Virus record (IMG/VR): IMGVR_UViG_3300033571_028777
Coordinates: 1 to 20,543 of that record
Reading direction: 5' to 3' (one strand)
From: a virus
DNA: 20,543 nt
A program made the translations under genes and the position numbers. Below, one piece after another: positions 1-19,389 of this stretch (position 1 is the stretch's first letter; every line of letters begins with the position of its first letter). The notes under the pieces are model-generated. The model was not told the DNA's origin, did not search any database, and saw nothing but the letters and a program-made list of their open reading frames with translations.

Positions 1-50
1 ACCTGGGGATTCTTGAAATACGTCAGGATCATGACTCTGAAGAACTGCAT
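1..50 (-). CDS. Start of a hypothetical protein, cut by the window edge
   Basis: Only the first 16 codons are visible, reading MQFFRVMILTYFKNPQ. The ATG follows a good AAGGAG site with a spacer of about 8 bases, and that site overlaps the TAA stop of the upstream gene. This is the same pattern as the other minus-strand genes. No function can be assigned from this fragment. Confidence 0.6.
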   Translation of the reverse strand, partial: MQFFRVMILTYFKNPQ

Positions 51-61
51 GTTTTGTCTCC

Positions 62-406
62 TTACTTCGTTTGTGCGAGCCTAACAACTTCTGCCAACCT
101 GATCTTGATTGTCTCCTTTGCGGTCAAAGCCGCCTGCTCTTCGGTGGTCATCCAATCATCGGTATCTCCCCGATACTCGATCTTGAATGCGCACTCCATT
201 CGATTCCCAGACTGCTCGGGATCCTTGCTGACGCAGTTCAGCCACTCATCCAAAGCAGCGTGAAAGAACTCACGCGTCTTCGGATCCACTCCCATCGACT
301 TCTTCAGATCGAAGAAGATCCTGTCTCCAACGGGAACAGGGGCCGGATACCCCTGCACCATCCCCGTGAAGAAACTCGTGTACAACAACCTGAACTCGTC
401 ACTCAT
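62..406 (-). CDS. Hypothetical phage protein, 114 aa
   Basis: The ATG is preceded by AAGGAG about 8 bases upstream. The protein is acidic and soluble, with no signal peptide or membrane segment. Visible features are an aromatic N-terminus (FRLLYTSFF), a central DPKTREFFHAALDEWL helix-like stretch and a C-terminal charged helix rich in Ala, Glu and Lys. I do not recognise a family. It is the last complete gene of the minus-strand series, and the next one starts 11 bases after its stop. Coding is well supported by the ribosome binding site and compact packing; function is unknown. Confidence 0.75.
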   Translation of the reverse strand: MSDEFRLLYTSFFTGMVQGYPAPVPVGDRIFFDLKKSMGVDPKTREFFHAALDEWLNCVSKDPEQSGNRMECAFKIEYRGDTDDWMTTEEQAALTAKETIKIRLAEVVRLAQTK

Positions 407-424
407 AACACACTCCTTACAATG

Positions 425-447
425 AAAGCCGCATCATTGCGGACTTT
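425..447 (-). promoter_or_regulatory. Leader hairpin carrying the AAAGTCCGCA element
   Basis: In the minus-strand RNA, AAAG-U-CCGCA pairs with UGCGG-CUUU across an AUGA loop: nine base pairs with one bulged base. The 5' arm is the ten-base element AAAGTCCGCA found at five other places in the left half. The hairpin sits about 18 bases upstream of the start codon at 406. A second GC-rich hairpin (CCCCCG/CGGGGG, 473-491) lies further upstream in the same gap. Possible roles are mRNA stabilisation, processing or translational control. Confidence 0.5.
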
Positions 448-507
448 GGAGGCGAACGGCCTACCTAGACCTCCCCCGGTCGCATCGGGGGATTTGAGGA
501 TGGTCGT

Positions 508-1032
508 TTAGCCGTGAATGTGATCACGGAGATTATTTACTGATGTCACGTCCAGGTTCAAGATCTGCCGACACTCTTGCCCATTGATGATGGACTCAAG
601 AACCTCAATCATGGTCTTCCTTGCAGCCTTAAGGTCGTGGATGTAACAGCCGTTGTAAGACACGGAGTCATGGATGTTCTGCAGCCAAATCAAGACCATC
701 ATGTCCTTACGCTCAACCCCTGCAGCGTCCAAGATTTTGTCCATCAGCGCACGTGCCGCAAAGAGCTTGTGCTCAATCATATGGATCTTCCCGAGACTGA
801 ATCCGGCGTGCCAAAAGGTTCGGAACTCCATTCCGGTGACACGCTCAGCGCGGTCGATCTCCTCTACGCCGCTATCGCTGAGCAGGCAGCCAACGGCGCA
901 CCGCCCAACCTCATCGCCGCTCGAATCGCACATCTTGTACAGACATGCTCCATTCTGATTGATACCAGGCAGTCCGCCGTCGGAGTAGAACCCGTGGACA
1001 CGCTTGACGATGCTCATTGCTTCCTGATTCAT
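508..1032 (-). CDS. Hypothetical phage protein, 174 aa, with GRCAVGCLL motif
   Basis: The ATG follows AAAGGA at good spacing; an alternative start five codons in (MSIVKRV) is also possible. The N-terminal half contains CLYKMCDSSG and GRCAVGCLLSDSG. This resembles a motif I recall from small uncharacterised phage proteins (CAVGCLIPDE-like), but that is memory, not a search result. The protein has eight or so cysteines and a mixed alpha/beta look, with no membrane segment. Its 5' end overlaps the end of the gene at 911-1171. Function unknown. Confidence 0.8.
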   Translation of the reverse strand: MNQEAMSIVKRVHGFYSDGGLPGINQNGACLYKMCDSSGDEVGRCAVGCLLSDSGVEEIDRAERVTGMEFRTFWHAGFSLGKIHMIEHKLFAARALMDKILDAAGVERKDMMVLIWLQNIHDSVSYNGCYIHDLKAARKTMIEVLESIINGQECRQILNLDVTSVNNLRDHIHG

Positions 1033-1171
1033 CTGAGATCCTTTCTACAAGGAAAGTGAGAGAGTTGATCACATCAGCCACCATGGCGGTGTGATTGTTG
1101 ATATTCCCCGCCGAGATGTGCATAGAGAACAGATGAGCCAACTGCTCGCTCTTCTGCTTTAGTGGATTCAC
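911..1171 (-). CDS. Possible small gene, 86 aa, overlapping the next gene
   Basis: It begins with GTG at 1171, and the GTGA overlaps the TGA stop of the upstream gene, the coupling style used elsewhere in this region. The N-terminal 45 residues look protein-like (two helices, LAHLFSMHISAG and VADVINSLTFLVERI). The last 40 residues are Arg-rich and lie over the start of the downstream gene in another frame, so the true protein may be degenerate at its C-terminus. No family is recognised. Confidence is moderate because of the 122-base overlap. Confidence 0.5.
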   Translation of the reverse strand: MNPLKQKSEQLAHLFSMHISAGNINNHTAMVADVINSLTFLVERISDESGSNEHRQACPRVLLRRRTAWYQSEWSMSVQDVRFERR

Positions 1172-1389
1172 GGCTCGAACCCCGGAGTGCGGTCGTACTG
1201 CCGCCAGATGATCTTGTCTGGGTCCAGGACCGCACAGACCTCTTCGAGCTTTTGGAAGTACCGCTTGGCATTACGCCAAACTTCGCCGTCGTCGGTGTAC
1301 TCGTACCACCAGTCGGCGATCTGAAGGAACTTCTTGTACTCATCGACGCTCCAGCTGCTCGCCGGCTTGGCAAACATCTCTTCTGTCAT
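1168..1389 (-). CDS. Hypothetical protein, 73 aa, Trp/Tyr-rich
   Basis: The ATG at 1389 follows AAAGGAAGAG and overlaps the TGA of the upstream gene (ATGA), so translation is probably coupled. The product is small and soluble, rich in aromatic residues (SSWSVDEYKKFLQIADWWYEY), and ends in RTPGFEP. It has no signal peptide. It belongs to a coupled three-gene set from 1622 down to 911. I do not recognise the family. Confidence 0.7.
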   Translation of the reverse strand: MTEEMFAKPASSWSVDEYKKFLQIADWWYEYTDDGEVWRNAKRYFQKLEEVCAVLDPDKIIWRQYDRTPGFEP

Positions 1390-1622
1390 GACTCTTCCTT
1401 TCTGTTGCGCATCTCAATGATGCTGATTACACGTGCCACCTTGACGCGTCCAGAGGTCGCAACCTTGGACACGTCCCGATTGAACTTCGCCGCCCACTGT
1501 TCGCACGCCTCCCGAGTCCTTCCGGGAAAGATGTGCGAGGGTCCGTTTCCAGGATTCGAGATCTCAACGACCCAATCCGCGGAGAGTGATCTAACAACTC
1601 GATCAGTGTTAACACGAACCAT
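1386..1622 (-). CDS. Hypothetical protein, 78 aa, paralogue of the 1668-1847 product
   Basis: The ATG follows TAGGAAG at normal spacing. The protein shares an arrangement with the product of the next gene upstream: a W-(V/I)-V-x-I beta strand followed by a Pro-Gly turn, then an EQWAAKFN helix (QRWCDEFN in the partner) and a VARVI strand. This looks like a tandem duplication of a small alpha/beta protein. Its stop overlaps the next start. No known family is recognised. Confidence 0.7.
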   Translation of the reverse strand: MVRVNTDRVVRSLSADWVVEISNPGNGPSHIFPGRTREACEQWAAKFNRDVSKVATSGRVKVARVISIIEMRNRKEES

Positions 1623-1637
1623 TGGTTCTTCCTAACT

Positions 1638-1669
1638 GTGGCTTAGCCACAAAGAGAGCCTCTCGGCTC
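1638..1669 (-). promoter_or_regulatory. Two adjacent leader hairpins
   Basis: In the minus-strand RNA, GAGCC-GAGA-GGCUC (1656-1669) has a GNRA-type loop and GUGGC-UAA-GCCAC (1638-1650) has a three-base loop. The first overlaps the stop codon of the upstream gene and the second lies just before the AGGAAG site of the next. The UAA-loop hairpin has a counterpart at 3752-3764 with the arms exchanged. There is no U-run, so a simple terminator is unlikely. Confidence 0.5.
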
Positions 1670-1847
1670 AGTTATCCTGACACTCCTTCTTCTCGGACCG
1701 GTGGATCACACGAGCCACCTCAGGTCCCCCGCCATTGAACTCGTCACACCACCTCTGCATGTCGATCTTGGTGGTTGCGGGCTTGATGAAACGAGGCCCG
1801 AACTCGCATCCAGGCCTGTCGATTTGAACGATCCAACAATCTTCCAT
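1668..1847 (-). CDS. Hypothetical protein, 59 aa, paralogue of the 1386-1622 product
   Basis: I chose the ATG at 1847 because it has GGAG eight bases upstream and gives an N-terminus (MEDCWIVQIDRPG) that aligns with the paralogue. The longer reading frame from 1895 would overlap the upstream gene and has no matching site. The protein has the WIVQI strand, an MQRWCDEFN helix and a VARVI strand near the end. Function unknown; the tandem pair suggests local duplication. Confidence 0.7.
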   Translation of the reverse strand: MEDCWIVQIDRPGCEFGPRFIKPATTKIDMQRWCDEFNGGGPEVARVIHRSEKKECQDN

Positions 1848-1860
1848 GGTTGTACTCCAA

Positions 1861-2253
1861 TCAGACTCGCTCGCCCTTGCTTCTCTTGTAGGCATACTCA
1901 GCCGACAAGGGGGCTTGAGAAGGATCCTTTAGCCAATTCTCTGCGAGCAGAAGCGTGAACCTGTGAAACTCACTGTCTCCGTGCACAGCGCAGATAACCG
2001 AAATCCACTCGACAATCACTGACTGATCGCGATCCCACTCTGCCCTGTTCTTCCAAGCAGGATCCGTGATCTCTCTTGTCAGCCTACCGCAGATGTAGTA
2101 TCTAGCGCCCATCCTGTCGATGAGGTAGCGCTGATGCTTGAGAACCTGCATGATCTGCCACGAGGCAGACTGCTCTGGGTTCTGCCATCCCTCAACCTTG
2201 ACAGCCAACTCAAGGTACTTGATGGCATCCTCTGACGTTTCAATCTTCGGCAT
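1861..2253 (-). CDS. Hypothetical protein, 130 aa
   Basis: The ATG follows TAGGAG eight bases upstream. The sequence is mainly helical (EDAIKYLELAVKVEGW, SASWQIMQVLKHQRYLI, SVIVEWISVICAVHG) with a basic C-terminus. It has neither signal peptide nor transmembrane segment. It is separated from its upstream neighbour by a strong hairpin. I do not recognise the family. Confidence 0.75.
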   Translation of the reverse strand: MPKIETSEDAIKYLELAVKVEGWQNPEQSASWQIMQVLKHQRYLIDRMGARYYICGRLTREITDPAWKNRAEWDRDQSVIVEWISVICAVHGDSEFHRFTLLLAENWLKDPSQAPLSAEYAYKRSKGERV

Positions 2254-2277
2254 GTCATTACTCCTACGTTAAAGCTA

Positions 2278-2302
2278 GTGGGGGGAGAACGCCTCCCCCC
2301 AC
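2278..2302 (-). promoter_or_regulatory. Ten-base-pair GC hairpin in the leader
   Basis: GTGGGGGGAG and CTCCCCCCAC form a perfect ten-pair stem with a five-base loop, about 25 bases before the start codon at 2253. No U-run follows on either strand. A copy of the ten-base element (minus-strand AAAGTCCACA) lies on the far side at 2318-2327, just after the upstream gene's stop. Probable mRNA-stabilising or regulatory structure. Confidence 0.5.
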
Positions 2303-2332
2303 CAGCCTTAGTTGCGATGTGGACTTTGAGGC

Positions 2333-2773
2333 TTAGCCGACGTGGCCAGACGCACGGAGAGCGCGCGTGTTGCGCTCCACCGCAGCCGACTTCTTGTCCG
2401 CAGTGAAGACTTCGACAACCACGTCGTCTCGGTAGATGTTGCCGGGACCGGTCGTGCCGCGGCCGATCGCAGCCAACTCCAGCGCCCGCTTGAGCTGCGC
2501 CTCGATGACCTCTGCCGCTGCCCTCTTGGCGCGCTCGGCAGCCGCCTTCAGGCGATCGACATCATTGTCGTCCATCAGAATGCCGGCGACATCGGCAGCG
2601 AAAGTCGTCATGACCCTGCTGGGCTGCGACTTGCTCCTGCGGAAACCCACCACGATGTCTGCGAGGGCAGCGGCCTGCTGCTTCGTCGCGTTCTTCGACT
2701 TGGGGGCCGCCTGGGTGGCGCCGAGGCTGACGGTGGCGGTGGCGGTCTCGACGGTCACATTGTTGTTGCTCAT
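2333..2773 (-). CDS. Ala/Lys-rich hypothetical protein, 146 aa
   Basis: The ATG follows AAGGAG at seven bases. The N-terminus is low-complexity Thr/Ala (VTVETATATVSLG), followed by a long helical middle rich in Ala, Arg and Glu (KAAAERAKRAAAEVIEAQL) that could form a coiled coil, and a short beta C-terminus (DDVVVEVFTADKK). No membrane segment. A small hairpin (CCGAG/CTCGG, 2785-2799) directly abuts its Shine-Dalgarno sequence, suggesting translational control. Family unknown; possibly a nucleoid-like or structural accessory protein, but that is speculation. Confidence 0.75.
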   Translation of the reverse strand: MSNNNVTVETATATVSLGATQAAPKSKNATKQQAAALADIVVGFRRSKSQPSRVMTTFAADVAGILMDDNDVDRLKAAAERAKRAAAEVIEAQLKRALELAAIGRGTTGPGNIYRDDVVVEVFTADKKSAAVERNTRALRASGHVG

Positions 2774-2875
2774 GGCAACTCCTTCCGAGGGTTTCTCGGA
2801 TTTGGAACCCTATCAACAGATAACCCGCCCATCGAAATTGTGGGCAGCCAGCTCCTGTTGCATCGGGAATAGAAA

Positions 2876-2895
2876 CGCCGCCCTTTCGGGCGGCG
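2876..2895 (-). terminator. Hairpin, possible minus-strand terminator
   Basis: CGCCGCCC and GGGCGGCG form a perfect eight-pair stem closed by a GAAA loop in the minus-strand RNA, followed by UUUCUAUU. It lies 7 bases after the stop of the gene at 2903-3295. The U-run is interrupted, so termination may be partial. Confidence 0.55.
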
Positions 2896-2902
2896 CCTCC
2901 TT

Positions 2903-3295
2903 TTAGATCTCGGGGTACTTCTTCGGCGTCTTCTCGGTCATGTTGGCACACGCCTTCACGATGAGGATGAGATCCTCCCGATCAACGTGGCCGATGACCT
3001 GATCGAAGTGTCGCGGCTCCAAGAAGCCGGGGATACAGAGCGCCGTCTCGTTCTCGTCCCACGCCATGACTTCGCATGACGTGAAGCCTTGATCGCAGTA
3101 GTTCTGACCGCCCCACTGCACACTGAGGCTGACGTCATTGCTGAACGTCAGATGAACGCCCTTGATCCGACGCTTCATCATACGCCACTCGTTTCGGTCA
3201 ATATCACCACGAGTGGGAACGAACTTCTTGACCCTGACTCCAGCAAGATTGAGAACCCGCTGGATCTGATTAAGCCTGAACCACTTCTTCTTCAC
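2903..3295 (-). CDS. Hypothetical protein, 130 aa
   Basis: The start is GTG at 3295, overlapping the upstream TGA as GTGA and preceded by an excellent AAGGAGGTGA site. The N-terminus is basic (MKKKWFRLNQIQRVLNLAG, then KRRIKG), the rest beta-rich with acidic patches (VSLSVQWGGQNYCDQG, DENETALC). The charge pattern could fit a nucleic-acid-associated protein, but no motif confirms this. It is coupled to the gene at 3292-3738. Confidence 0.75.
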   Translation of the reverse strand: MKKKWFRLNQIQRVLNLAGVRVKKFVPTRGDIDRNEWRMMKRRIKGVHLTFSNDVSLSVQWGGQNYCDQGFTSCEVMAWDENETALCIPGFLEPRHFDQVIGHVDREDLILIVKACANMTEKTPKKYPEI

Positions 3296-3738
3296 TTGGT
3301 CACCTCCTTGAGATGCTCGTCCATTGCCTCAGCCATGGATGCGCAGCACTCGCTGATTGCTCGTTGCGTGTGAACTTCCATCCAACGATGGCGCAGATGG
3401 CGAACGGCACCTGCGATGAGAGACAGCTCCAAGTACATCTCGTAGTCAGTGTCCTTGAACTTGTCCCTGCAGGCGTCGATACGCTCGACGATCCGCCCGA
3501 TCCGCTCCTTCTTCAGAGCGTCCTCGGCCGCGGCGAGAGCAGCGCGATGCTTCTCCCACTCGTCGCGCATTGCCCAAACGAGTTCGAAGGCCTGCTTGCG
3601 CCACTTGTCATCCTCTCCGCCCTCGATGCGATTGACGCACATGTTGAGCATGCTGAAGCCTGCGTCAACAGTCCGACCTCCACCGATCATGCCGAGGTTG
3701 TACTCATGGCTCTCGTGCGTGTTCCAATCAGCAGTCAT
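3292..3738 (-). CDS. Helical hypothetical protein, 148 aa
   Basis: I start it at the ATG at 3738, which has AAGGAG at correct spacing; the longer frame from 3756 would begin inside the ribosome binding site. The protein has a Gly-rich N-terminal part (YNLGMIGGG) and then long amphipathic helices (WRKQAFELVWAMRDEWEKHR, KKERIGRIVERIDACR) likely to pack as a helical bundle. It is coupled to the downstream gene by a GTGA overlap. No family recognised. Confidence 0.75.
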   Translation of the reverse strand: MTADWNTHESHEYNLGMIGGGRTVDAGFSMLNMCVNRIEGGEDDKWRKQAFELVWAMRDEWEKHRAALAAAEDALKKERIGRIVERIDACRDKFKDTDYEMYLELSLIAGAVRHLRHRWMEVHTQRAISECCASMAEAMDEHLKEVTK

Positions 3739-3773
3739 TACACACTCCTTCGCCACTTAGTGGCATGGAAACA

Positions 3774-3804
3774 GGGGCGGGCCGCCAACGCGACGACCCG
3801 CCCC
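3774..3804 (-). repeat. GC-rich hairpin repeat, copy 1
   Basis: GGGGCGGG and CCCGCCCC form an eight-pair stem around a CCAACGCGACG core. Nearly the same 31-base element occurs at 4094-4124 and 5168-5198, always between minus-strand genes. A second small hairpin (GCCAC-TTA-GTGGC) lies next to it at 3752-3764. No U-run follows, so it is not a standard terminator. Confidence 0.7.
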
Positions 3805-3810
3805 ACTCGA

Positions 3811-4062
3811 TCAGTTTGCAGCAGGCGTGATCTGCCAAATCATGAACGAGGTGATCGCCACGTTGACGCAACCCTCGGGTTCGCCCGTGATCTTGCGGTC
3901 ATTCGCCCATTGGACGGCCATCTCCGCACCCTCGCGGATGAACCCCTCGTCGTGATGTGCAGCGAAGAACGTGCACTGGAAGGCTCCCTGCCCGTGGACG
4001 TACTCGTCCTTGCGATCGCGCCCGACCCAGGCGCACATTCCGGTCACGATGAACTTCCTCAT
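3811..4062 (-). CDS. Hypothetical protein, 83 aa
   Basis: The start at 4062 is chosen because AAGGAG lies nine bases upstream and the protein then begins MRKFIVTGMCAWVGRD; the longer frame upstream crosses the hairpin repeat and is low-complexity. The short alpha/beta protein has FQCTFFAAHHDEGFIREGAE and a C-terminal strand (CVNVAITSFMIWQI). No signal peptide. It lies between two copies of the GC hairpin repeat. Unknown function. Confidence 0.7.
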   Translation of the reverse strand: MRKFIVTGMCAWVGRDRKDEYVHGQGAFQCTFFAAHHDEGFIREGAEMAVQWANDRKITGEPEGCVNVAITSFMIWQITPAAN

Positions 4063-4093
4063 TTGCTGACTCCTTCTGCGCATAGCGCGATGA

Positions 4094-4124
4094 GGGGCGG
4101 GTCGCCAACGCGACGACCCGCCCC
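4094..4124 (-). repeat. GC-rich hairpin repeat, copy 2
   Basis: The best copy: GGGGCGGGTCG and CGACCCGCCCC form an eleven-pair perfect stem around CCAACGCGA. The ten-base element (minus-strand AAAGTCCACA, 4128-4137) lies directly beside it, just after the stop of the gene at 4143-4487. Confidence 0.75.
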
Positions 4125-4142
4125 ATGTGTGGACTTTGCGGT

Positions 4143-4487
4143 TTAGCAGTTCTCCAGGGCCTCGTCCATGGCCTTGCGGCCCTCTTCGTTGATCGCCACT
4201 GAGATGACGATCAGCGTGCCATCTTCCCCCTCCTCGCCGAGCGAGGGCCACAGATCGAAATCCGCGTGCTCATCGCTCGGCTGCTTGCCGTCCTGGCACT
4301 TGAGACCCGAGATCGTCATGGTCACGAGATCCTCGCCCATCGCCCAAAGGCGACGGGTGACGTCTCCGCGATCCGTACTCTGCGGGCGGTACATCATCGG
4401 CGTGTGGTACACCAGATGGTGTACCCCTCCTTCCTCGGTCGTCAGGCGGTGCGAGAGGGTCTTCATGTCCGCGATGGTTGCCTTCAT
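4143..4487 (-). CDS. Hypothetical protein, 114 aa, behind a pseudoknot leader
   Basis: The ATG follows AGGAG by eight bases. The product looks like a small alpha/beta protein with strands at VHHLVYHTPMMY, DLVTMTISGLKC and GTLIVISVAIN, and an acidic middle (SDEHADFDLWPSLGEEGED). No membrane segment or known motif. The Shine-Dalgarno site is immediately adjacent to a stem of a predicted pseudoknot (4501-4542), so its translation is probably regulated by RNA folding. Family unknown. Confidence 0.8.
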   Translation of the reverse strand: MKATIADMKTLSHRLTTEEGGVHHLVYHTPMMYRPQSTDRGDVTRRLWAMGEDLVTMTISGLKCQDGKQPSDEHADFDLWPSLGEEGEDGTLIVISVAINEEGRKAMDEALENC

Positions 4488-4500
4488 GTTGGCAACTCCT

Positions 4501-4542
4501 ACCGATAGTGCGAAACTAGCCTGTTATCGGTGTGCAGGCTAG
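4501..4542 (-). promoter_or_regulatory. H-type pseudoknot touching the ribosome binding site
   Basis: Two perfect stems interleave in the minus-strand RNA. Stem 1 pairs CUAGCCUG (4542-4535) with CAGGCUAG (4523-4516). Its loop contains ACCGAUA (4531-4525), which pairs with UAUCGGU (4507-4501). The connecting loops are 3, 1 and 8 bases, a normal geometry for an H-type pseudoknot. The last base of stem 2 is followed without a gap by AGGAG. Known parallels in form are the T4 gene 32 leader and small pseudoknot riboswitches; no ligand or protein is identified here. Confidence 0.65.
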
Positions 4543-4552
4543 GGTTTGGAAG

Positions 4553-4582
4553 CGCTGCGCAGCCGTTTCCGGCTGCACAGCG
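4553..4582 (-). promoter_or_regulatory. Thirteen-base-pair hairpin with GAAA loop
   Basis: CGCUGUGCAGCCG and CGGCUGCGCAGCG pair over 13 positions in the minus-strand RNA, with a GAAA tetraloop and one G-U pair. In the plus strand that G-U position would be a C-A mismatch, so the structure favours the minus-strand transcript. It lies just after the upstream gene's stop and before the pseudoknot. Confidence 0.65.
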
Positions 4583-4589
4583 GTAGTGG

Positions 4590-5141
4590 TTAGAACACAT
4601 CCCTCTCAAGGTCGAGCCTGACCTGCTCAGCGTGAGCATCCGTGGGATCGGGCAGCAAATTCCCCCACATGTACTCAAGCGGAATCGACCACCCCTGCCA
4701 ACGGCATTCGTAGCCGTAGCAGAAGTTCACCAGCTCAACCTTGTACTGGTAGTCCCACAAGCGAGCTGTGCGGGCATTGCTGACAGCGGACTTCTCGATC
4801 AGCATCGGCCTGAATCCGTCCTTCTCAAACGGGTCGGGATACCACACCTCGGTGTTCCAGTACTGCTTGCCCGTCAGGCGGAACATCGGGTACAGCAGCC
4901 GAGCGACGATCAGCACGCCGCGAATTCTGCCGCGCGGCCCCCACTTCTCCCACACGAACCTGCGGCTCTCGACCTCGTAGGCCCTGCGAACCATGAGCAG
5001 GAACATCCGAATCCTGCTCCCCTCGTACACAACCGCCAACCCGCTCCGCCGCAGATCCTTGATGATCCCTGCGAACAGGTACACAGTCAGGAAACCACTC
5101 GTGCATGCGACGATGAACATGAAAAGCTCCCAAGAACTCAT
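4590..5141 (-). CDS. Membrane-anchored hypothetical protein, 183 aa
   Basis: Start chosen at the ATG at 5141 (MSSWELF), with AAGAAGGG a few bases upstream; the longer frame from 5165 has no site. Residues 4-26 (ELFMFIVACTSGFLTVYLFAGII) form one clear N-terminal transmembrane helix, followed by a positively charged stretch (KDLRRSG), consistent with an inner-membrane anchor and a cytoplasmic domain. The rest is rich in Arg, Trp and Tyr. It could act at the host membrane, but there is no recognisable domain. Confidence 0.75.
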   Translation of the reverse strand: MSSWELFMFIVACTSGFLTVYLFAGIIKDLRRSGLAVVYEGSRIRMFLLMVRRAYEVESRRFVWEKWGPRGRIRGVLIVARLLYPMFRLTGKQYWNTEVWYPDPFEKDGFRPMLIEKSAVSNARTARLWDYQYKVELVNFCYGYECRWQGWSIPLEYMWGNLLPDPTDAHAEQVRLDLERDVF

Positions 5142-5167
5142 TTGACCCTTCTTTCTAGAAAGCACAA

Positions 5168-5198
5168 AGGGCGAGCCACCAACGCGATGGCCCGCCCC
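5168..5198 (-). repeat. GC-rich hairpin repeat, copy 3
   Basis: GGGCG-a-GCC pairs with GGC-c-CGCCC around CCAACGCGAT. This copy has one internal mismatch but keeps the same core as copies at 3774 and 4094. It sits in the leader of the gene at 4590-5141, and a degenerate form of the ten-base element (minus-strand AAACTCCGCA) lies between it and the upstream gene's stop. Confidence 0.65.
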
Positions 5199-5223
5199 TT
5201 GCGGTTGCGGAGTTTACTGCCGA

Positions 5224-5472
5224 TCAGAGAACCTTGAACACGGGATTGCGGTAAGCCGCGTCCCCCGGCTTCGTGTCCCTGTTCCAAAGGTTGACCTCGC
5301 GCCACAGGCTGTGGTAGGCGCTCCTGAGGGCGCTGAGCCTGCGCTTGCGAGCCTTGCCCTTGCCGAGCGGCGCGTGAACCGTGTTACCGACACCCACCGC
5401 CATCTCCTCGTTGATCGCAACGAGCACGCTCCAACCGTCGATGCGGTTGGTGATCTTGACTTGAGCTGTCAC
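5224..5472 (-). CDS. Basic hypothetical protein, 82 aa
   Basis: Start is GTG at 5472, overlapping the TGA of the upstream lysis-type gene as GTGA, with GAGGAGG in front. The N-terminal part is beta-like (VKITNRIDGWSVLVAINEEM) and the middle is strongly basic (GKGKARKRRLSALRSAY), suggesting nucleic acid contact or simply a basic tail. Translational coupling ties it to the gene at 5469-5891. Not recognised. Confidence 0.7.
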   Translation of the reverse strand: MTAQVKITNRIDGWSVLVAINEEMAVGVGNTVHAPLGKGKARKRRLSALRSAYHSLWREVNLWNRDTKPGDAAYRNPVFKVL

Positions 5473-5891
5473 TTACGCCTCCTCTTCTGCGGCTTCTTGC
5501 CGCCGTTGTCCATGATCTCTTGGACCGATCGCCAGTATGGCAGAGTCGAGTCCTTCACATGACCCTTGGGTCCGCCGTTGTGCTTGCGAGCGGCTTCCTC
5601 GTCGTTCTTGGGCTTGTAACGGCCCATGTACGCCTTAAACACGCGGATGCTGACCTCGCGGTCATAGCAGTCCTCGTGCTTCAGGTCGCGCAGGCTCGGG
5701 TCAGCCTCCTGTGCATCCTTGAAGTAGCCCGGCCTGATCTGAAGGCAGCCGATGGCGTTCTCCTTCTTGTTGAACGCCTTGTCGTTGCCGTCCGACTCCT
5801 GCTCAATCAGGCTCTTGATGAGCAGTTCGCTCTGAGCCTGAACGGGCGCGCCGCAGAGCAGCGCAGCGATGATGATGGTGATTAGCCTCAC
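5469..5891 (-). CDS. Secreted lytic transglycosylase / lysozyme-like protein, 140 aa
   Basis: The start chosen is GTG at 5891, with AGGAGG seven bases upstream; it gives a clean signal peptide (MRLITIIIAALLCGAPVQA, predicted cut before Gln20). The mature part has the layout of a goose-lysozyme/SLT fold: IEQESDGND with the likely catalytic Glu at residue 32, then AIGCLQIRPGYF, the counterpart of the family's GxxQ motif, and a YWRSV helix near the end. The C-terminus is a basic tail (KKPQKRRRK). It probably cleaves peptidoglycan in the periplasm during lysis or superinfection control. Family assignment is by motif only; substrate and role are inferred. It is coupled at both ends to neighbours by GTGA overlaps. 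Confidence 0.75.
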   Translation of the reverse strand: MRLITIIIAALLCGAPVQAQSELLIKSLIEQESDGNDKAFNKKENAIGCLQIRPGYFKDAQEADPSLRDLKHEDCYDREVSIRVFKAYMGRYKPKNDEEAARKHNGGPKGHVKDSTLPYWRSVQEIMDNGGKKPQKRRRK

Positions 5892-11740: not shown

Positions 11741-12531
11741 GTAGAATTAAAAATATCATAGCCAAGTTTATCGCTGCTGTTCAAGCTACGCCGCCTGATG
11801 CTCCAAGACCTGGATCAATACCGCTTCCGCCTACAGGCAGACCAAGGCAGCCGCCAACAGGTCCTACAAATACGCCTGCGCAGCCCCCTAATCCGCCAAC
11901 GCCAAGGCCATCGCCTCACAGGCCGCAATTCACTATGTGTCCAGACGAAATCATGGGGGAATGGCCGCCGAGGGTTCCTAATGGAAATACTAGCACCGCT
12001 AACCAATGCAAGAAGATAGAGACTCATTTTGCTCAACTGAGAAAGCACCTCAAGGAATGCGCAAGCAAGTGCAATTCTGATAATGGTTTAAATTACGATT
12101 GGACGACTTGTCTTAACAATAAGTGGAACGAATGGCTGATAGACCAACCAACTTCGTCTATAGCCCCTGTTGACATGACTGGAGTAATGGCCGCCGTTCC
12201 TTTTGAGATGCCTGAAAGCCCAATTCCTCAAGACGAGACCCCGTTTCCTCTAAGGCCAAACCTTTCCGGAACACAACTCAGAAACTGCAAGATTCACAGA
12301 AACAGGTGCGCTTGCAATGTGAGAAGAAAAAAACTTGAGCATATGCTAAAGCTTGCAGAGCTTGCAGAAAAATACTATTGGATGTGTCCGCCATACAATA
12401 AGGACGACGCAAAGACAAGATTCAAGAATGTTTGCGAGGCGCTTAAGATGGAAAAGCCCGCATCAGATACTTGCTCGCCAAACGCAGACTTTGGAGACGA
12501 TTGCAGAAAGTACTGCAGAAACTGTGTATAA
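11737..12531 (+). CDS. Cys-rich, Pro-rich protein 4 with N-terminal tag, 264 aa
   Basis: The ATG at 11737 overlaps the previous stop as ATGA and has GGAG at good spacing. The tag MSRIKNIIAKFIAAVQ lacks the x-E site of its neighbours and runs into a long Pro/Thr/Arg-rich linker (about residues 20-62). After this come 14 cysteines in the same order and spacing as protein 3: ECASKC, NCKIHRNRCACN, DTC and DDCRKYCRNC. The shared frame C-x3-E-x2-G-x-WP precedes them in both. The linker would suit a flexible, extended virion protein. Function unknown. Confidence 0.8.
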   Translation: MSRIKNIIAKFIAAVQATPPDAPRPGSIPLPPTGRPRQPPTGPTNTPAQPPNPPTPRPSPHRPQFTMCPDEIMGEWPPRVPNGNTSTANQCKKIETHFAQLRKHLKECASKCNSDNGLNYDWTTCLNNKWNEWLIDQPTSSIAPVDMTGVMAAVPFEMPESPIPQDETPFPLRPNLSGTQLRNCKIHRNRCACNVRRKKLEHMLKLAELAEKYYWMCPPYNKDDAKTRFKNVCEALKMEKPASDTCSPNADFGDDCRKYCRNCV

Positions 12532-12543
12532 AAAGATACTCAT

Positions 12544-13266
12544 ATGAAAAAACTAAATAATATACTATCTAAATTAAATTCCGCTTTTGCTGTTGAAAGA
12601 GATGTTACAGAAGCCCCGATGATGCAGGAGACAATACCCCCGCTTCCTTGGAGTGTAGATCAAAACCTCACAGAGATGTGCTGCGGCCTATCTGAGTGGG
12701 ATTTGATTGAGGCTACAATATGTGGCGAAGCCGCTGGATGCGAAGAGGATGCTAGACAGCGAGTCTGGGGTGTAATTGTCAATAGAGCAATGCCTGGAAC
12801 TCCAGCTGGAGAATCGCCCGATGTTTACAACAGAGGTGTTTGCAATCTAGACGGTTACGCAAGAGTCATAGGGCGTAAAAAGCAGTTCTCATGCTGGAAT
12901 GCAAATCACCCTTGTGGCGGAGGAGACCCTTTCGCTAGTTGCGAAGCATTAAAGGAAAGAGTCCGATGCTTGAAAAAACTCTGCGGAAATAGACCGGTGA
13001 ATCCTGGACAATATACAGGAACATCTGGACTTGATGCTCTTAAGAGGCTAGGCTTCACTGCAGAAGAAGCAGTAAAGGTTAAGCATTACATGACTCTAGC
13101 CGCTTTCCTTGGCTGGCCATATATTTGCGATGAAGCCAAGAATGCTGTAAGAAATGCTTCTCGCGGTAAGAAGTCTTGGGTTGGTTGTGTTACTGTAACA
13201 TGCGCTGGCAAGACCCATAAGATCTGCTCAGACGGCTGCCACGTGTTTATAAGCAATGTAGCATAA
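12544..13266 (+). CDS. SleB-type cell wall hydrolase with N-terminal tag, 240 aa
   Basis: After the tag (MKKLNNILSKLNSAFAVE) the protein shows the SleB / Hydrolase_2 pattern: EATICGEAAGC with the likely catalytic Glu, then a helix ARQRVWGVIVNRAM, DVYNRGVCNLDGYARVI, and KKQFSCWNANHP, the family's QFSCWN block. The C-terminal region has further Cys pairs (GCVTVTCAGK, HKICSDGC), about 15 cysteines in all. Known family members cut peptidoglycan glycan strands. Sharing the tag with four neighbours suggests it is carried in the virion to open the cell wall during entry rather than acting as the holin-linked endolysin; that is inference. The ribosome binding site is weak. It is the last gene of the operon. 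Confidence 0.8.
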   Translation: MKKLNNILSKLNSAFAVERDVTEAPMMQETIPPLPWSVDQNLTEMCCGLSEWDLIEATICGEAAGCEEDARQRVWGVIVNRAMPGTPAGESPDVYNRGVCNLDGYARVIGRKKQFSCWNANHPCGGGDPFASCEALKERVRCLKKLCGNRPVNPGQYTGTSGLDALKRLGFTAEEAVKVKHYMTLAAFLGWPYICDEAKNAVRNASRGKKSWVGCVTVTCAGKTHKICSDGCHVFISNVA

Positions 13267-13278
13267 TGCAAAAAACAA

Positions 13279-13881
13279 TTAAACGCTAGGAACAGAGATA
13301 ATTGAAGTATTACGCCCCATGCGGTCACCCGTGTGGGGCTGTTTTTGAGTTATTACTAAAACAGGACCGTTGTCGGCTGTTTCAAAGCTGTAGTATACAG
13401 TGTTCACGTTTGAGGCAGATGTCCAAAGGGCTATGCTTGGAGTGTAAGATGCCGCCACTCTATATGTATATAGAATTGCGTTTGTGCAATCTACTATCAC
13501 TCTTGAATTAACGGTATGCGCTAAGTTGGTGGTCGTGGTAATTGAGTCGTTAGATAATATGTCTCCACCAGCAGTTGTCCACAAAAAACCACTGGCGTAA
13601 TTAGTCCAATTTATGAATCTATAGTCTATAGCCCCCGCCAACAAAGCGCTGCTAATTGGATAATTTACATTTGAGCCGCTTAGCGTCTTTACATTCAACA
13701 GTATGTGAGCAGACACAATTGTGCTTGGGTCTATTGAGCTTGGAACAGAAAATTGAGCAACAACTTTATTTGTTGTTGACACTGTCGAGATAGATAAATC
13801 TCCAGTCCTATAGTTGGTACTTGGACTTGCCGAGGATATGTATGTATCGAGTGTTGCTACGACAGTGTTTTCAATTATCAA
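13279..13881 (-). CDS. DNRLRE-like beta-sandwich protein, 200 aa
   Basis: The start appears to be TTG at 13881, overlapping the TGA of the gene before it. The sequence follows the DNRLRE / CBM96-like pattern: TLDTYISSASPSTNY, a VVAQFSVPSSI strand, IVSAHILLNVKTLSG, NWTNYASGFLWTTAGGD, VIVDCTNAI, and a final GPVLVITQ strand. It is rich in Ser, Thr and Asn and has one Cys. Known members are carbohydrate-binding or adhesive modules in secreted and phage structural proteins, so a head decoration, fibre or tail accessory protein is likely. The last ~22 residues are encoded across the terminator of the opposing operon and may not be functional. Confidence 0.7.
   Translation of the reverse strand: MIIENTVVATLDTYISSASPSTNYRTGDLSISTVSTTNKVVAQFSVPSSIDPSTIVSAHILLNVKTLSGSNVNYPISSALLAGAIDYRFINWTNYASGFLWTTAGGDILSNDSITTTTNLAHTVNSRVIVDCTNAILYTYRVAASYTPSIALWTSASNVNTVYYSFETADNGPVLVITQKQPHTGDRMGRNTSIISVPSV
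13314..13346 (+). terminator. Rho-independent terminator, plus strand
   Basis: GCCCCAUGCGG pairs with CCGUGUGGGGC (eleven pairs including two G-U) around a UCAC loop, followed by CUGUUUUU. It ends the five-gene Cys-rich operon, 47 bases past its last stop. It overlaps the 3' end of the minus-strand gene at 13279-13881. Confidence 0.85.
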
Positions 13882-14075
13882 AGCTGTACCTGCCCTCTAA
13901 GCTCAACCCTGCCTCTGCCTGAAAGCTTTACAAGACCTAAACGTCTGCGCATTTCTCTAACAGACTTCAGGCTTTTCTTAAGATGTGACGCAATATCTAC
14001 ATCCTTCATGTTGGCCGCATTAGTAGTTAGAAAGTGTTTTTCAATCTCAGACCATCGTTTTTTTGAAGTATTCAT
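13878..14075 (-). CDS. Small helix-turn-helix protein, 65 aa
   Basis: The ATG has GGAG at eight bases. The body RWSEIEKHFLTTNAANMKDVDIA, then SHLKKSLKSVREMRRRLGL, is a Myb/SANT-like or GcrA-like DNA-binding fold: an acidic first helix, a turn, and a basic third helix starting at KSLKSVREMRRR. The C-terminus is a basic Gly/Arg tail. It probably binds DNA, perhaps controlling the divergent late genes that begin at 14119. It is coupled to the downstream DNRLRE-like gene by a 4-base overlap. The exact family is uncertain. Confidence 0.7.
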   Translation of the reverse strand: MNTSKKRWSEIEKHFLTTNAANMKDVDIASHLKKSLKSVREMRRRLGLVKLSGRGRVELRGQVQL

Positions 14076-14107
14076 GGGTTAACTCCGCAAAAATATACAC
14101 GATACAC

Positions 14108-14113
14108 TATAAT
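14108..14113 (+). promoter_or_regulatory. -10-like box placed for a leaderless transcript
   Basis: TATAAT ends five bases before the GTG at 14119, so transcription from a normal -10 box would begin at or beside the start codon. I see no -35 hexamer at the right distance, and no ribosome binding site precedes the GTG. A phage-specific sigma that needs only a -10-like element, as at T4 late promoters, is one possibility. Confidence 0.45.
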
Positions 14114-14118
14114 ACATT

Positions 14119-14706
14119 GTGGCAAAAAGTCTAGATCCTATTAAATCTTTTCTGAAAAAGATTAACAAGAGAGGTAAGGAAAAAATTTCCTACGAAGACG
14201 TTGTCGCTATCATTGAAATGATTGCAAAAATGCATAGGGGTAAGAAATTTGGATTCATGACTGAGGAAGACATAGAATCACAAGTAAGGTTGATATGCAT
14301 ACAGCAGCTCAGATTCTTTGATGCCAAAAAAGAAGCAGACGTAACTCACCATAAATCTTTGGAAAGATGGTTAAATAAAATAGTAAAGAATAGGCTTAAA
14401 AACTTCTACAGGGATCACTGTCTTTCGGTTAACGAAAAGCATTCATCTGCAAGACAAAGCTTGAGCAGATCTGCTTGTTCTTTAGACGACCAAACACATG
14501 TAGCCGACCAAAATTCAATACAAAGATCAACCATACAGGAAGACATAGAGCATGCAGAGCTGCAAATATTTATAGAGCAAAGACTTGACGAGTCCTACAT
14601 GGAAATATACAAGGCTTGTATAAACGATGAGGCCGTAACGCCATACTACAAGAACAAGTTGATGGGTAGGATAAATGAAATCCTGAAGGAGTGGAACAGT
14701 GAATAA
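14119..14706 (+). CDS. Putative phage sigma-like factor, 195 aa
   Basis: The middle of the protein (about residues 50-100) resembles sigma-70 region 2: EEDIESQVRLICIQQLRFFD, then LERWLNKIVKNRLKNFYRD, with the layout of T4 gp55 (an FDxxK segment, a gap, and a basic helix ending in an Arg/Lys-rich motif). No region 4 is visible. A Ser-rich linker (SARQSLSRSACS) follows, then an acidic helix. As a late sigma it would direct RNA polymerase to the structural genes; the adjoining packaging genes support this. It starts with GTG and lacks a Shine-Dalgarno site, with a -10-like box just upstream. Family assignment is moderate. Confidence 0.55.
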   Translation: MAKSLDPIKSFLKKINKRGKEKISYEDVVAIIEMIAKMHRGKKFGFMTEEDIESQVRLICIQQLRFFDAKKEADVTHHKSLERWLNKIVKNRLKNFYRDHCLSVNEKHSSARQSLSRSACSLDDQTHVADQNSIQRSTIQEDIEHAELQIFIEQRLDESYMEIYKACINDEAVTPYYKNKLMGRINEILKEWNSE

Positions 14707-15526
14707 AAAGCTGTCTTCTGTAGATCTGCAGTTTATAAAGGAAAACCTTGAGAAATTGTCGCTGGCTGAGATAGCTAGAAGACTAGACTGCTCTGTAAAG
14801 ACCATAGAAAGATACAAGAAGAAACTATCAGCTCCAGATGCAGTAATTGAAGGAGGCAAGGTCGAATACCAAGCCGAAAAAGACTTGTCGTTTTGGTCTA
14901 ATGACCTTATGAACTCTGCTCGTGGCCGTAGAATAAAAAGCATACTGACTAAAGACGAATGGGAATCTTTCTGCGAGGACTGGGCTGGATATCATATTCA
15001 GCTTGATGATTTAAACCACACCGAGGAAAACAACATAGAGCAGATAATAATGCTCAAGCTTAGAATAGATAAAAACCAATCAGACTATTCCGGCGCTGTT
15101 AGGCTTCGTGATGACTTGATGAAGGAAAATGCTATCAGAGACCTGAAGGATCTAGACTTGACAGATCCACAGCAGGCTGCTGTTTACGAAAAAGTATTTG
15201 CTGCTAGCCTAAGATTGACAGATTTAAACAAGGAATACAAAGAGCTGCTGGAAAAGAGCACAAAAATAAGTGAAAGCCTTAATATTACAAGAAAGCAGCG
15301 CGAGGAAAAGGGTAAAATAGGTGCCGACACATTCTTCGCTCTATGCAAGAAATTCGACTCAAAGAAGACAAGAAATCAGGAAGGAAGAATGGCTGATCTT
15401 ATGCGTATGTCAATGACGAATAAGCAAAATGAGCTTAGGAACGGCGTAGAGTTTATGGACGGAGAAATAGCTCCACAATTACTGGATGCTGAAACATTAA
15501 GATTAATGGACAAAACAAATGAATAA
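14699..15526 (+). CDS. Putative small terminase subunit, 275 aa
   Basis: Start is GTG at 14699, behind AAGGAG, overlapping the previous gene by eight bases. The N-terminus is a helix-turn-helix (LSLAEIARRLDCSVKTIERYKKKL, residues ~19-42), as in many small terminases, which recognise the packaging start. The rest is long and helical with coiled-coil features (NNIEQIIMLKLRIDKNQ, LRLTDLNKEYKELLEKS). Position two genes before the nuclease cluster and large terminase supports the role. An alternative is another DNA-binding structural protein; there is no signature that proves the small terminase. Confidence 0.6.
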   Translation: MNKKLSSVDLQFIKENLEKLSLAEIARRLDCSVKTIERYKKKLSAPDAVIEGGKVEYQAEKDLSFWSNDLMNSARGRRIKSILTKDEWESFCEDWAGYHIQLDDLNHTEENNIEQIIMLKLRIDKNQSDYSGAVRLRDDLMKENAIRDLKDLDLTDPQQAAVYEKVFAASLRLTDLNKEYKELLEKSTKISESLNITRKQREEKGKIGADTFFALCKKFDSKKTRNQEGRMADLMRMSMTNKQNELRNGVEFMDGEIAPQLLDAETLRLMDKTNE

Positions 15527-16499
15527 AACCGCAATAATCACGGGAACGTATGGGCAGGACGGTTCATACTTGGCTGAGCACCTGCTAGAAATTGGATACA
15601 AGGTATACGGTGTATCTAGAAGAACTTCTTCTCGAACTAATGAGTTCCTTTACAGCGCGTCTATTAATCCAAACTTCACTTTGGTTAATCTAGACATAAC
15701 AGATCCGTCTGGGATCACAGAAATGATTTCTGACATCAAGCCAAACGAGTATTATAATCTAGCCGCAATGTCTCATGTAGGGCAAAGCTTCAAGGAGCCT
15801 ATCAGCACTCTGAAGACAGATGGAGAGGCTGTGACAATAGCTCTAGACGCTATAATGAAGTACAGTCCAAACACAAGATTCTATCAAGCCTCTACTTCTG
15901 AGCTTTTTGGGAATTCGCCAGGGCCTCAAAGTGAATCGACTACTTTTGCGCCAAGAAGTCCTTATGCTGCAGCGAAACTCTACGCTCACAAAATGGTAGG
16001 CCTATATAGAGAGGCTTATGGTATGCACGCTTCCTGTGGAATACTTTTCAATCATGAAAGCCCGAGAAGAGGCTTAGATTTTGTCACAAGGAAAATAACT
16101 AGAGGCATCGCAATGTTCATGCTGACAGGGGAAAAGTTTACAATAGGAAATCTTGACGCTCAGAGAGATTGGGGTCACGCCAAGGAGTATGTTCAGGTAA
16201 TGCACAAGATGCTTCAGCAGGAAGTGCCTGACGACTATGTAATAGGCACGGGCGAAACTGCATCAATCAAAGACGCTATAGATTATGTATGCGAATTGGC
16301 TGATATAAAGGAAGAGCCTTACGTACAAGACCCTAAATTAATAAGACCAGCCGAAGTAAATAGGCTAATAGCTGATCCTTCAAAGGCTCACAAGAAACTC
16401 GGATGGAAAGCGAAGATAAGATGGAAAGATCTTTTGGCCGAGATGCTAGACAGCGATGTCCAAGCTTTGGGTCGCAATAGTGTATTAGATATGCTGTGA
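15519..16499 (+). CDS. gmd: GDP-mannose 4,6-dehydratase, 326 aa
   Basis: This enzyme converts GDP-mannose to GDP-4-keto-6-deoxymannose, a precursor of GDP-fucose, GDP-rhamnose and related sugars. All key parts are visible: the nucleotide-binding TGTYGQDGSYLAE (residues 8-20), STSELFG with catalytic Thr126 and Glu128, the SDR pair Tyr149-Lys153 in SPYAAAK, NHESPRRG at 178-185, and NLDAQRDWGHAKEYV at 211-225. The N-terminal glycine loop reads GTYGQDG rather than the usual GITGQDG. At 326 aa it is shorter than the E. coli enzyme (about 373) but within the range of short forms. It overlaps both neighbours and lies inside a packaging module, an unusual place for a sugar enzyme. It may feed glycosylation of virions or alter the host surface; that is inference. 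Confidence 0.93.
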   Translation: MNKTAIITGTYGQDGSYLAEHLLEIGYKVYGVSRRTSSRTNEFLYSASINPNFTLVNLDITDPSGITEMISDIKPNEYYNLAAMSHVGQSFKEPISTLKTDGEAVTIALDAIMKYSPNTRFYQASTSELFGNSPGPQSESTTFAPRSPYAAAKLYAHKMVGLYREAYGMHASCGILFNHESPRRGLDFVTRKITRGIAMFMLTGEKFTIGNLDAQRDWGHAKEYVQVMHKMLQQEVPDDYVIGTGETASIKDAIDYVCELADIKEEPYVQDPKLIRPAEVNRLIADPSKAHKKLGWKAKIRWKDLLAEMLDSDVQALGRNSVLDML

Positions 16500-16879
16500 G
16501 ACGTAAAAAATACAGAAACCCAAGGGATTATGAGGCATATAGAGAGTTTCGACGTTCAGTTCTAAAAAGAGATAGCTATAAATGCCAATATCCAGGTTGC
16601 CAAGTAAGACAGCAGTTAGAAGTGCATCATATTAAAAAATATGCTGATCACCATAGATTAAGAACAGAGATATTCAACGGTATAACGCTTTGCAAAAAGC
16701 ACCACTTTTCAGTGACGGGAAGAGAAGAGCAGTACGAATCGGTTTTTTATAGAACCGTCATAGCAAATGCAAATGAACCAGATTGGGAAAAACTAGATGC
16801 CCCGAAAAGGATACGCAGACGCAAGAAAGCAAGCGCAAAAAACTTTAAAAGAAACTCTGTACGCAAACGTTATCGTTGA
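16496..16879 (+). CDS. HNH endonuclease, 127 aa
   Basis: Starts with GTG at 16496, overlapping the previous TGA. The HNH core has CQYPGC (Cys30 and Cys35), VHHIKKY with His44-His45, NGITLCKKHH with Asn61, Cys66 and His69-70: a complete zinc-stabilised beta-beta-alpha-metal site. The C-terminus is a highly basic tail. HNH proteins next to the large terminase are common in long-tailed phages and can be required for packaging-linked DNA cutting. Alternatively it is a homing nuclease. Its last 83 bases are shared in another frame with the ERCC4-like gene. Confidence 0.88.
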   Translation: MRRKKYRNPRDYEAYREFRRSVLKRDSYKCQYPGCQVRQQLEVHHIKKYADHHRLRTEIFNGITLCKKHHFSVTGREEQYESVFYRTVIANANEPDWEKLDAPKRIRRRKKASAKNFKRNSVRKRYR

Positions 16880-17351
16880 TACAAGAGAAAAAAAGCCTTG
16901 GGATTTCGTTGATGGCATGCCTTCTGGTTTTTATGTCAAAGAAGTTAAAAACATTGCTCTTCCATGCGGAGACTATTCTTTGGAAGGTTTTGAAGATAAG
17001 AATGGTATAATAATAGAGAGAAAGAATAGTATCGAAGAAGTTATAGGAAACTTCGGAAAAAATTGGGATCGCTTTACAAAAGAATTAGATAAGCTTGCTG
17101 AATATAAGCGATCCTATATAATAGTTGAAGACGATCTAAAGGATTCTTTTGCTAGATACGCAGCTAGAAACCCTCTGAAGGGCAGGTATTTCACCCTTTC
17201 TCCAGACTTCATAATGAAGCGAGTGTGTGAAATAGATTACAAATGGAATATAAAAACCTTGTTTCTATCGAATAAATACTTTGCAAAAAAATACATGTGC
17301 AACATGTTCAAGCAACTAATAGAAGAAAAAAATGCAACTAAATTGGACTGA
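16797..17351 (+). CDS. ERCC4-type nuclease, 184 aa
   Basis: The sequence shows the ERCC4/XPF nuclease signature: VIVDTREKKPW (DTRE at residues 28-31), CGDYSLEG (GDY 58-60) and IIIERK (74-76), then a helix leading to SYIIVEDD. In the classical GDx(n)ERKxxxD motif the last acidic residue is Asp; here ERKNSIE has Glu. The family cuts branched or flap DNA, and phage members occur as repair, recombination or packaging-related nucleases. The start ATG lies inside the HNH gene, so the two are translated from overlapping frames; the 83-base overlap is long but both domains are intact. It also overlaps the large terminase start by 20 bases. Confidence 0.85.
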   Translation: MPRKGYADARKQAQKTLKETLYANVIVDTREKKPWDFVDGMPSGFYVKEVKNIALPCGDYSLEGFEDKNGIIIERKNSIEEVIGNFGKNWDRFTKELDKLAEYKRSYIIVEDDLKDSFARYAARNPLKGRYFTLSPDFIMKRVCEIDYKWNIKTLFLSNKYFAKKYMCNMFKQLIEEKNATKLD

Positions 17352-19353: not shown

Positions 19354-19389
19354 AATTGTGTATTTTAATTGAATTGCAATCGGATTAAC

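Follow-up and report, generated by a model that had tools for sequence, protein, structure and literature searches.

By sequence comparison, the leader of a small gene on the minus strand of the IMG/VR virus record IMGVR_UViG_3300033571_028777 (positions 1 to 20,543, the whole stretch analyzed and hereafter the window) is a conserved folded RNA that ends at the ribosome site in the window and near it at a related locus, L043. We estimate a probability of about 0.5 that this leader RNA, which is absent from Rfam, controls translation of the next cistron. One argument for this reading is the position of the element, which fills the intergenic gap from the stop codon of the preceding gene (4592-4590) to the start codon at 4487, and which in both cases with a pseudoknot ends at or near the ribosome site and ATG. 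The preliminary description had reported the pseudoknot alone; its fold proved real and conserved but incomplete, as the pseudoknot makes up one half of an element that also includes, upstream, the box ACCACTA, a 13-bp GAAA hairpin (P1) and the motif CTTCCAA.

The pseudoknot occupies positions 4542-4501 and reads, 5' to 3' on the minus strand, CTAGCCTG CAC ACCGATA A CAGGCTAG TTTCGCAC TATCGGT. The two interleaved stems of eight and seven pairs and the loops of 3, 1 and 8 nucleotides that had been claimed were all recovered as read on this strand. Stem S1 joins CTAGCCTG (4535-4542) to CAGGCTAG (4516-4523) by 8 pairs and stem S2 joins ACCGATA (4525-4531) to TATCGGT (4501-4507) by 7 pairs, all of them Watson-Crick and without mismatch; loop 1 is CAC (4532-4534), loop 2 a single A (4524) and loop 3 TTTCGCAC (4508-4515). 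A 3-nt loop across a 7-bp stem together with an 8-nt loop across an 8-bp stem is a geometry that suits a coaxially stacked H-type fold. The end of S2 at 4501 directly abuts the Shine-Dalgarno sequence AGGAG (4500-4496) and lies 13 bases from the ATG at 4487, with only AGGAGTTGCCAAC between S2 and the ATG.

Scanning the window for H-type pseudoknots (two perfect stems, each of at least 6 pairs and 13 in all) identified this structure as the only one at these thresholds, besides its own mirror on the opposite strand. Chance complementarity was weighed against shuffled sequences. Dinucleotide-shuffling the whole window 100 times and scanning both strands produced a total of 8 pseudoknots with at least 15 pairs, and such a pseudoknot anywhere in 20 kb would thus be rare, not extraordinary. 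When the 65 bases before the start codon were shuffled, however, none of 20,000 shuffles contained an S1 of at least 8 and an S2 of at least 6 pairs, and such a pseudoknot arose in only 2 of 20,000 when the L043 leader was shuffled. These counts argue that the pseudoknot is not due to chance in either leader and, together with the compensatory changes in P1 and S1 described below, reduce chance to a negligible explanation.

The upstream half of the element begins with the conserved, single-stranded 5' box ACCACTA (4590-4584), found in all three copies of the element, the first A of which is the final base of the upstream gene's stop codon. A single base separates this box from P1 (4582-4553), a perfect hairpin with a GAAA tetraloop that measures exactly 13 bp in 3/3 copies. 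P1 is followed by the linker CTTCCAAACC (4552-4543), within which comparison of the copies revealed CTTCMAA to be conserved. Beyond the pseudoknot, the start codon was predicted to lie in the loop of a 6-bp hairpin, GTTGCC(AACATGAA)GGCAAC (4496-4477). Nested folding of the leader together with the first codons gave z = -5.03, and none of 200 shuffles scored as low. The minimum-energy nested fold pairs CTACC (4586-4582) with GGTAG and is incompatible with S2; the energy of this duplex was unremarkable, being matched by 1251 of 5000 shuffled 3' strands. We also considered a closing helix between ACCACTA and the Shine-Dalgarno sequence as an on/off switch and did not adopt it: the helix proved weak for the window, with 1251 to 3859 of 5000 3'-strand shuffles equally good, and moderate in L043 (150 to 581 of 5000, varying with the stretch chosen). 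A scan of 3700-5300 identified no sigma-70-like promoter and no terminator-like hairpin. P1 is therefore not an ordinary terminator, and its reading as an intrinsic terminator, a G+C-rich hairpin followed by a T run, was rejected, as P1 is followed by CTTCCAAACC and by no T run.

Two related records carry the element. G001 (IMGVR_UViG_3300032282_003797) has a leader that is letter-for-letter identical to that of the window across the whole gap, and therefore provides no information on covariation. The proteins that flank the leader and its gene are only 67% and 50% identical between G001 and the window; since the leader is identical while its neighbors have diverged to this extent, leader and gene were probably exchanged as one unit. 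G001 has the only homologue of the gene that was found, and the loss of both stems in homologous leaders, which had been named as an outcome that would speak against the fold, was not seen there. A second candidate pseudoknot in the window, AATGA/TCATT ahead of the gene at 406, was rejected because its second stem was, by eye, broken in G001.

The other record, G004 (IMGVR_UViG_3300010354_000686; terminase 83% identical), was found by a pseudoknot scan of eight terminase-sharing contigs. Its locus L043 reads GCAACAGG AAT ACCGAT A CCTGTTGC TACAGCAAC ATCGGT at 11112-11152, with the same ACCGAT in the 5' strand of S2, the same single A as loop 2 and a loop 3 counterpart of 9 nt, TACAGCAAC. Upstream of this pseudoknot lie ACCACTA, a GAAA hairpin that again has 13 bp but different letters, and CTTCCAA; downstream come a small hairpin, GGAG and an ATG at 11177. 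The direct contact between S2 and the Shine-Dalgarno sequence noted earlier holds for the window but is not a general feature: in L043 the ribosome site lies 14 bases past S2, and a 14-base hairpin fills the space. The reading frame from 11177 is truncated, running into the contig end after 12 codons. A second L043 copy at 10293 consists of the boxes and the P1 hairpin, but here a nested fold replaces the pseudoknot and no gene starts close by, which indicates that the P1 hairpin module is not always a leader. The independent examples therefore number only two for the pseudoknot and three for the P1 hairpin.

Covariation was analyzed separately for each helix. All 13 pairs of P1 were standard in 3/3 copies, and at 12 of the 13 one copy or more had both bases changed, a value reached in 0/500 shuffles; shifting the register of P1 abolished the signal. 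Between the window and L043 alone, both sides differed in 10/13 P1 pairs with pairing kept. For S1, the same comparison showed 8/8 pairs kept and 5/8 altered on both sides, and the observed value was reached by 14 of 500 shuffles, a control that is weak with two sequences. The 6 pairs common to S2 of the window and S2 of L043 were all unchanged and gave no covariation. Compensatory changes, the check proposed in the preliminary description, were thus found in P1 and in S1 but not in S2, for which the evidence is solely the improbability of the pseudoknot in the leader shuffles. The letters ACCGAT/ATCGGT of S2 may themselves be the feature that is recognized.

To define the distribution of the element we used pattern, model and similarity searches. 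The hairpin-plus-boxes pattern matched 101 stretches in viral contigs and at least 118 in species genomes. Among the 229 pattern matches listed (273 sequences, duplicate loci included), 12 rows had 13/13 pairs and represented 3 distinct sites, with the window and G001 counted as one; all other matches listed had at most 9/13 pairs. A model of P1, run over 33 sources and 505,054 bases, likewise returned the 3 distinct training sites at 49 bits and everything else at no more than 29.8 bits. The S2 pattern identified five stretches, namely G001, G004, L285, L286 and L287. The last three, whose surroundings showed no P1 hairpin, were for that reason judged to be chance matches; on its opposite strand L286 has a pseudoknot of 7+7 pairs, one of them G-U. 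The loop pattern CAC..A..TTTCGCAC..AGGAG matched, besides G001, one unrelated contig (L005) that lacks the stems and was set aside. No element combining P1 and a pseudoknot was identified at 7 loci in 6 more distant records with a G+C-rich island, of which parts were covered. Using blastn with word size 11, the element matched nothing in named phages, and its one plasmid match, of 37 bases, was insignificant (E = 0.3). No Rfam 15 family reached its gathering score in the window, L043 or L035, and 4380-4700 had no match to any family up to E = 10; the earlier statement that the structure fits no known consensus is borne out by this Rfam check. No description of the leader element was found in the literature outside subscription papers, which does not prove its absence. 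The element seems limited to a small uncultivated phage group; alternatively, copies elsewhere are too diverged for these patterns.

The gene behind the leader (4487-4143, minus strand) encodes a protein of 114 amino acids with no family match in Pfam or PHROGs and a poor fold prediction (mean pLDDT 38.8). Its one relative in viral contigs is that of G001, 98% identical; no homologue was detected by tblastn in named phages, and the gene was absent from 25 of 26 terminase-sharing records, G001 being the exception.

How such an element could act on translation can be outlined from its parts. A stacked helix at the ribosome site would set the efficiency of initiation on the next cistron. Most likely, a phage or host protein would recognize ACCACTA, CTTCMAA and ACCGAT together with the fixed 13-bp spacing and, once bound, would stabilize or open the element, as in other pseudoknot operators. 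The length of P1 is exactly 13 bp in all three copies while its letters are nearly free except for GAAA, which suggests that distance is what matters in this hairpin, for example for docking of the tetraloop or for spanning two protein contacts. The stacked helix of the window would end immediately upstream of the Shine-Dalgarno sequence, which would stay accessible but close by. Burial of the Shine-Dalgarno sequence in the pseudoknot helix does not explain both cases, because the L043 helix ends 14 bases before GGAG. More tentatively, the 13-bp GAAA hairpin, the boxes and the pseudoknot may form one compact domain, a new class of phage leader RNA, through which a phage protein or a metabolite would gate translation of the next cistron, with the hairpin module reused in a large non-coding RNA of these phages.

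Alternatively, the element could be static, serving to protect, process or insulate the mRNA of the downstream cistron without any switching. Strong hairpins of differing sequence do occur shortly before the Shine-Dalgarno sequences of several other genes in this arm of the window (for example at 5147, 4062, 3741, 2773, 2253 and 1622, among 19 positions folded), and the element is intergenic in a same-strand row of genes with no promoter or terminator match. A plain hairpin would suffice for such a role, however, whereas the unpaired boxes, the exact 13 bp and the elaborate pseudoknot suggest specific recognition. We regard a passive stabilizing or insulating structure as rather unlikely and prefer a protein operator that would control translation.

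The T4 gene 32 leader had been put forward as a phage parallel. The leaders of gene 32 in T4, T2 and RB69 are similar in that an H-type pseudoknot stands in a phage mRNA leader, 5' of the ribosome site of one cistron. According to PMC3014915 and PMC535899, about 67 nt separate the gene 32 pseudoknot, of about 28 nt, from the start codon further downstream; the intervening stretch is rich in UUAAA, less structured and includes the ribosome site. The gene product, gp32, is a single-strand binding protein. In contrast, the pseudoknot of the window has 42 nt, abuts the Shine-Dalgarno sequence, has a 13-bp GAAA hairpin upstream and precedes a gene whose product has no family match. The parallel holds for the H-type pseudoknot in the leader, which in the window is read from the letters only, but not for the UUAAA/UAAA-rich stretch, which is missing between S2 and ATG; for this reason the window is not a member of the gene 32 operators. 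The E. coli rpsO leader has a pseudoknot at the translation start that is used by its protein, S15, for autogenous control (PMC3014915); no S15-like protein was recognized in the window. Outside gene 32 of the T4 group, hardly any pseudoknots are known to control translation in DNA phages (PMC3014915). The leader pseudoknot described here has comparative support and is short enough for synthesis, and it draws attention to a G+C-rich arm, in an uncultivated phage group, which seems unusually rich in structured RNA.

SAM-II, SAM-V and preQ1 riboswitches are relatives of the SAM/SAH pseudoknot riboswitches. A small-molecule riboswitch with a pseudoknot aptamer beside the ribosome site would resemble the SAM/SAH and similar classes, which control translation and in which, according to PMC7367207, an H-type pseudoknot lies beside or across the Shine-Dalgarno sequence; in the SAM/SAH riboswitch this sequence is part of a 5-bp pseudoknot helix (PMC7367207). 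AGGAG in the window, however, lies just outside a 7-bp S2, and no Rfam covariance model matched. As not even a match up to E = 10 was obtained, S1 and S2 are long and perfect without a ligand, and the 114-aa protein has no metabolic family match, we consider a riboswitch decidedly improbable.

The element could also belong, as one domain, to a phage RNA that is larger or acts in trans, its position before a gene being secondary. P1 modules are present at both ends of a stretch of about 770 bases without a convincing gene in L043, and weaker P1-like hairpins occur inside a large conserved non-coding region of the window. That region is about 2.9 kb away from the element, however, and the element of the window and of G001 lies by itself in the gap between two genes and ends exactly at the ribosome site, which makes this explanation unlikely as well.

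The L043 stretch itself (10242-11060; roughly 770-800 bases) adjoins a matching gene row in G004 and contains none of the motifs of the large RNA of the window. The large region of the window spans 7455-8584 on the minus strand, about 1.1 kb without a convincing gene, and has counterparts in L035 (14400-15535, minus) and L041 (9484-10574, plus). Its conservation is strong in G001, and it is also conserved, in diverged form, in G003. RNAalifold analysis of three sequences of this region yielded 338 pairs, 67 of which had at least one compensatory double change, and by this model it looks like a large structured RNA. The gene downstream differs between the window and G001, although conservation extends to near its ribosome site. 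In Rfam, no family reached gathering score for this region, and blastn against named phages gave no match. The region recalls GOLLD and ROOL yet reaches neither model in Rfam, provided that both are included in that library. GOLLD and ROOL are described as large ornate phage RNAs in PMC12286853.

Several further features of the window were recorded. G+C content is about 0.53-0.65 in positions 1-9300, with small genes on the minus strand, versus about 0.36-0.50 in 9300-20543. An assembly error at this junction is unlikely, because G001 has both arms and related records have a similar G+C-rich island of several kb. The heptamer AAAGTCC (as AAAGTCCRCA) recurs in leaders at 7479, 6659, 4137, 2327 and 447 on the minus strand, a short distance before genes of the G+C-rich arm, with matching places in G001. 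Similar intergenic G+C-rich hairpins of the GGGGCGGGTCGTCGCGTTGGCGACCCGCCCC type were identified at 4093-4125, 3776-3805 and 5170-5200; behind each come a small hairpin and a Shine-Dalgarno sequence. The leader of the gene at 2773 (2900-2774, minus) has another 13-bp GAAA hairpin as well as TTCCAAA and a hairpin that directly adjoins AAGGAG, and its start codon lies in a further hairpin, GTTGC(CATGA)GCAAC; it is like the leader of the 114-aa gene in parts. At 5961-5941 (minus) a Shine-Dalgarno-like AGGAG is paired with CTCCT in a short hairpin (CTCCTAGAAAGGAG) directly before the ATG of a merely short reading frame. In the other arm, positions 15519-16499 encode a GDP-mannose 4,6-dehydratase-like protein (PF16363, E = 1.5e-104), about 0.8 kb upstream of a terminase-like gene.
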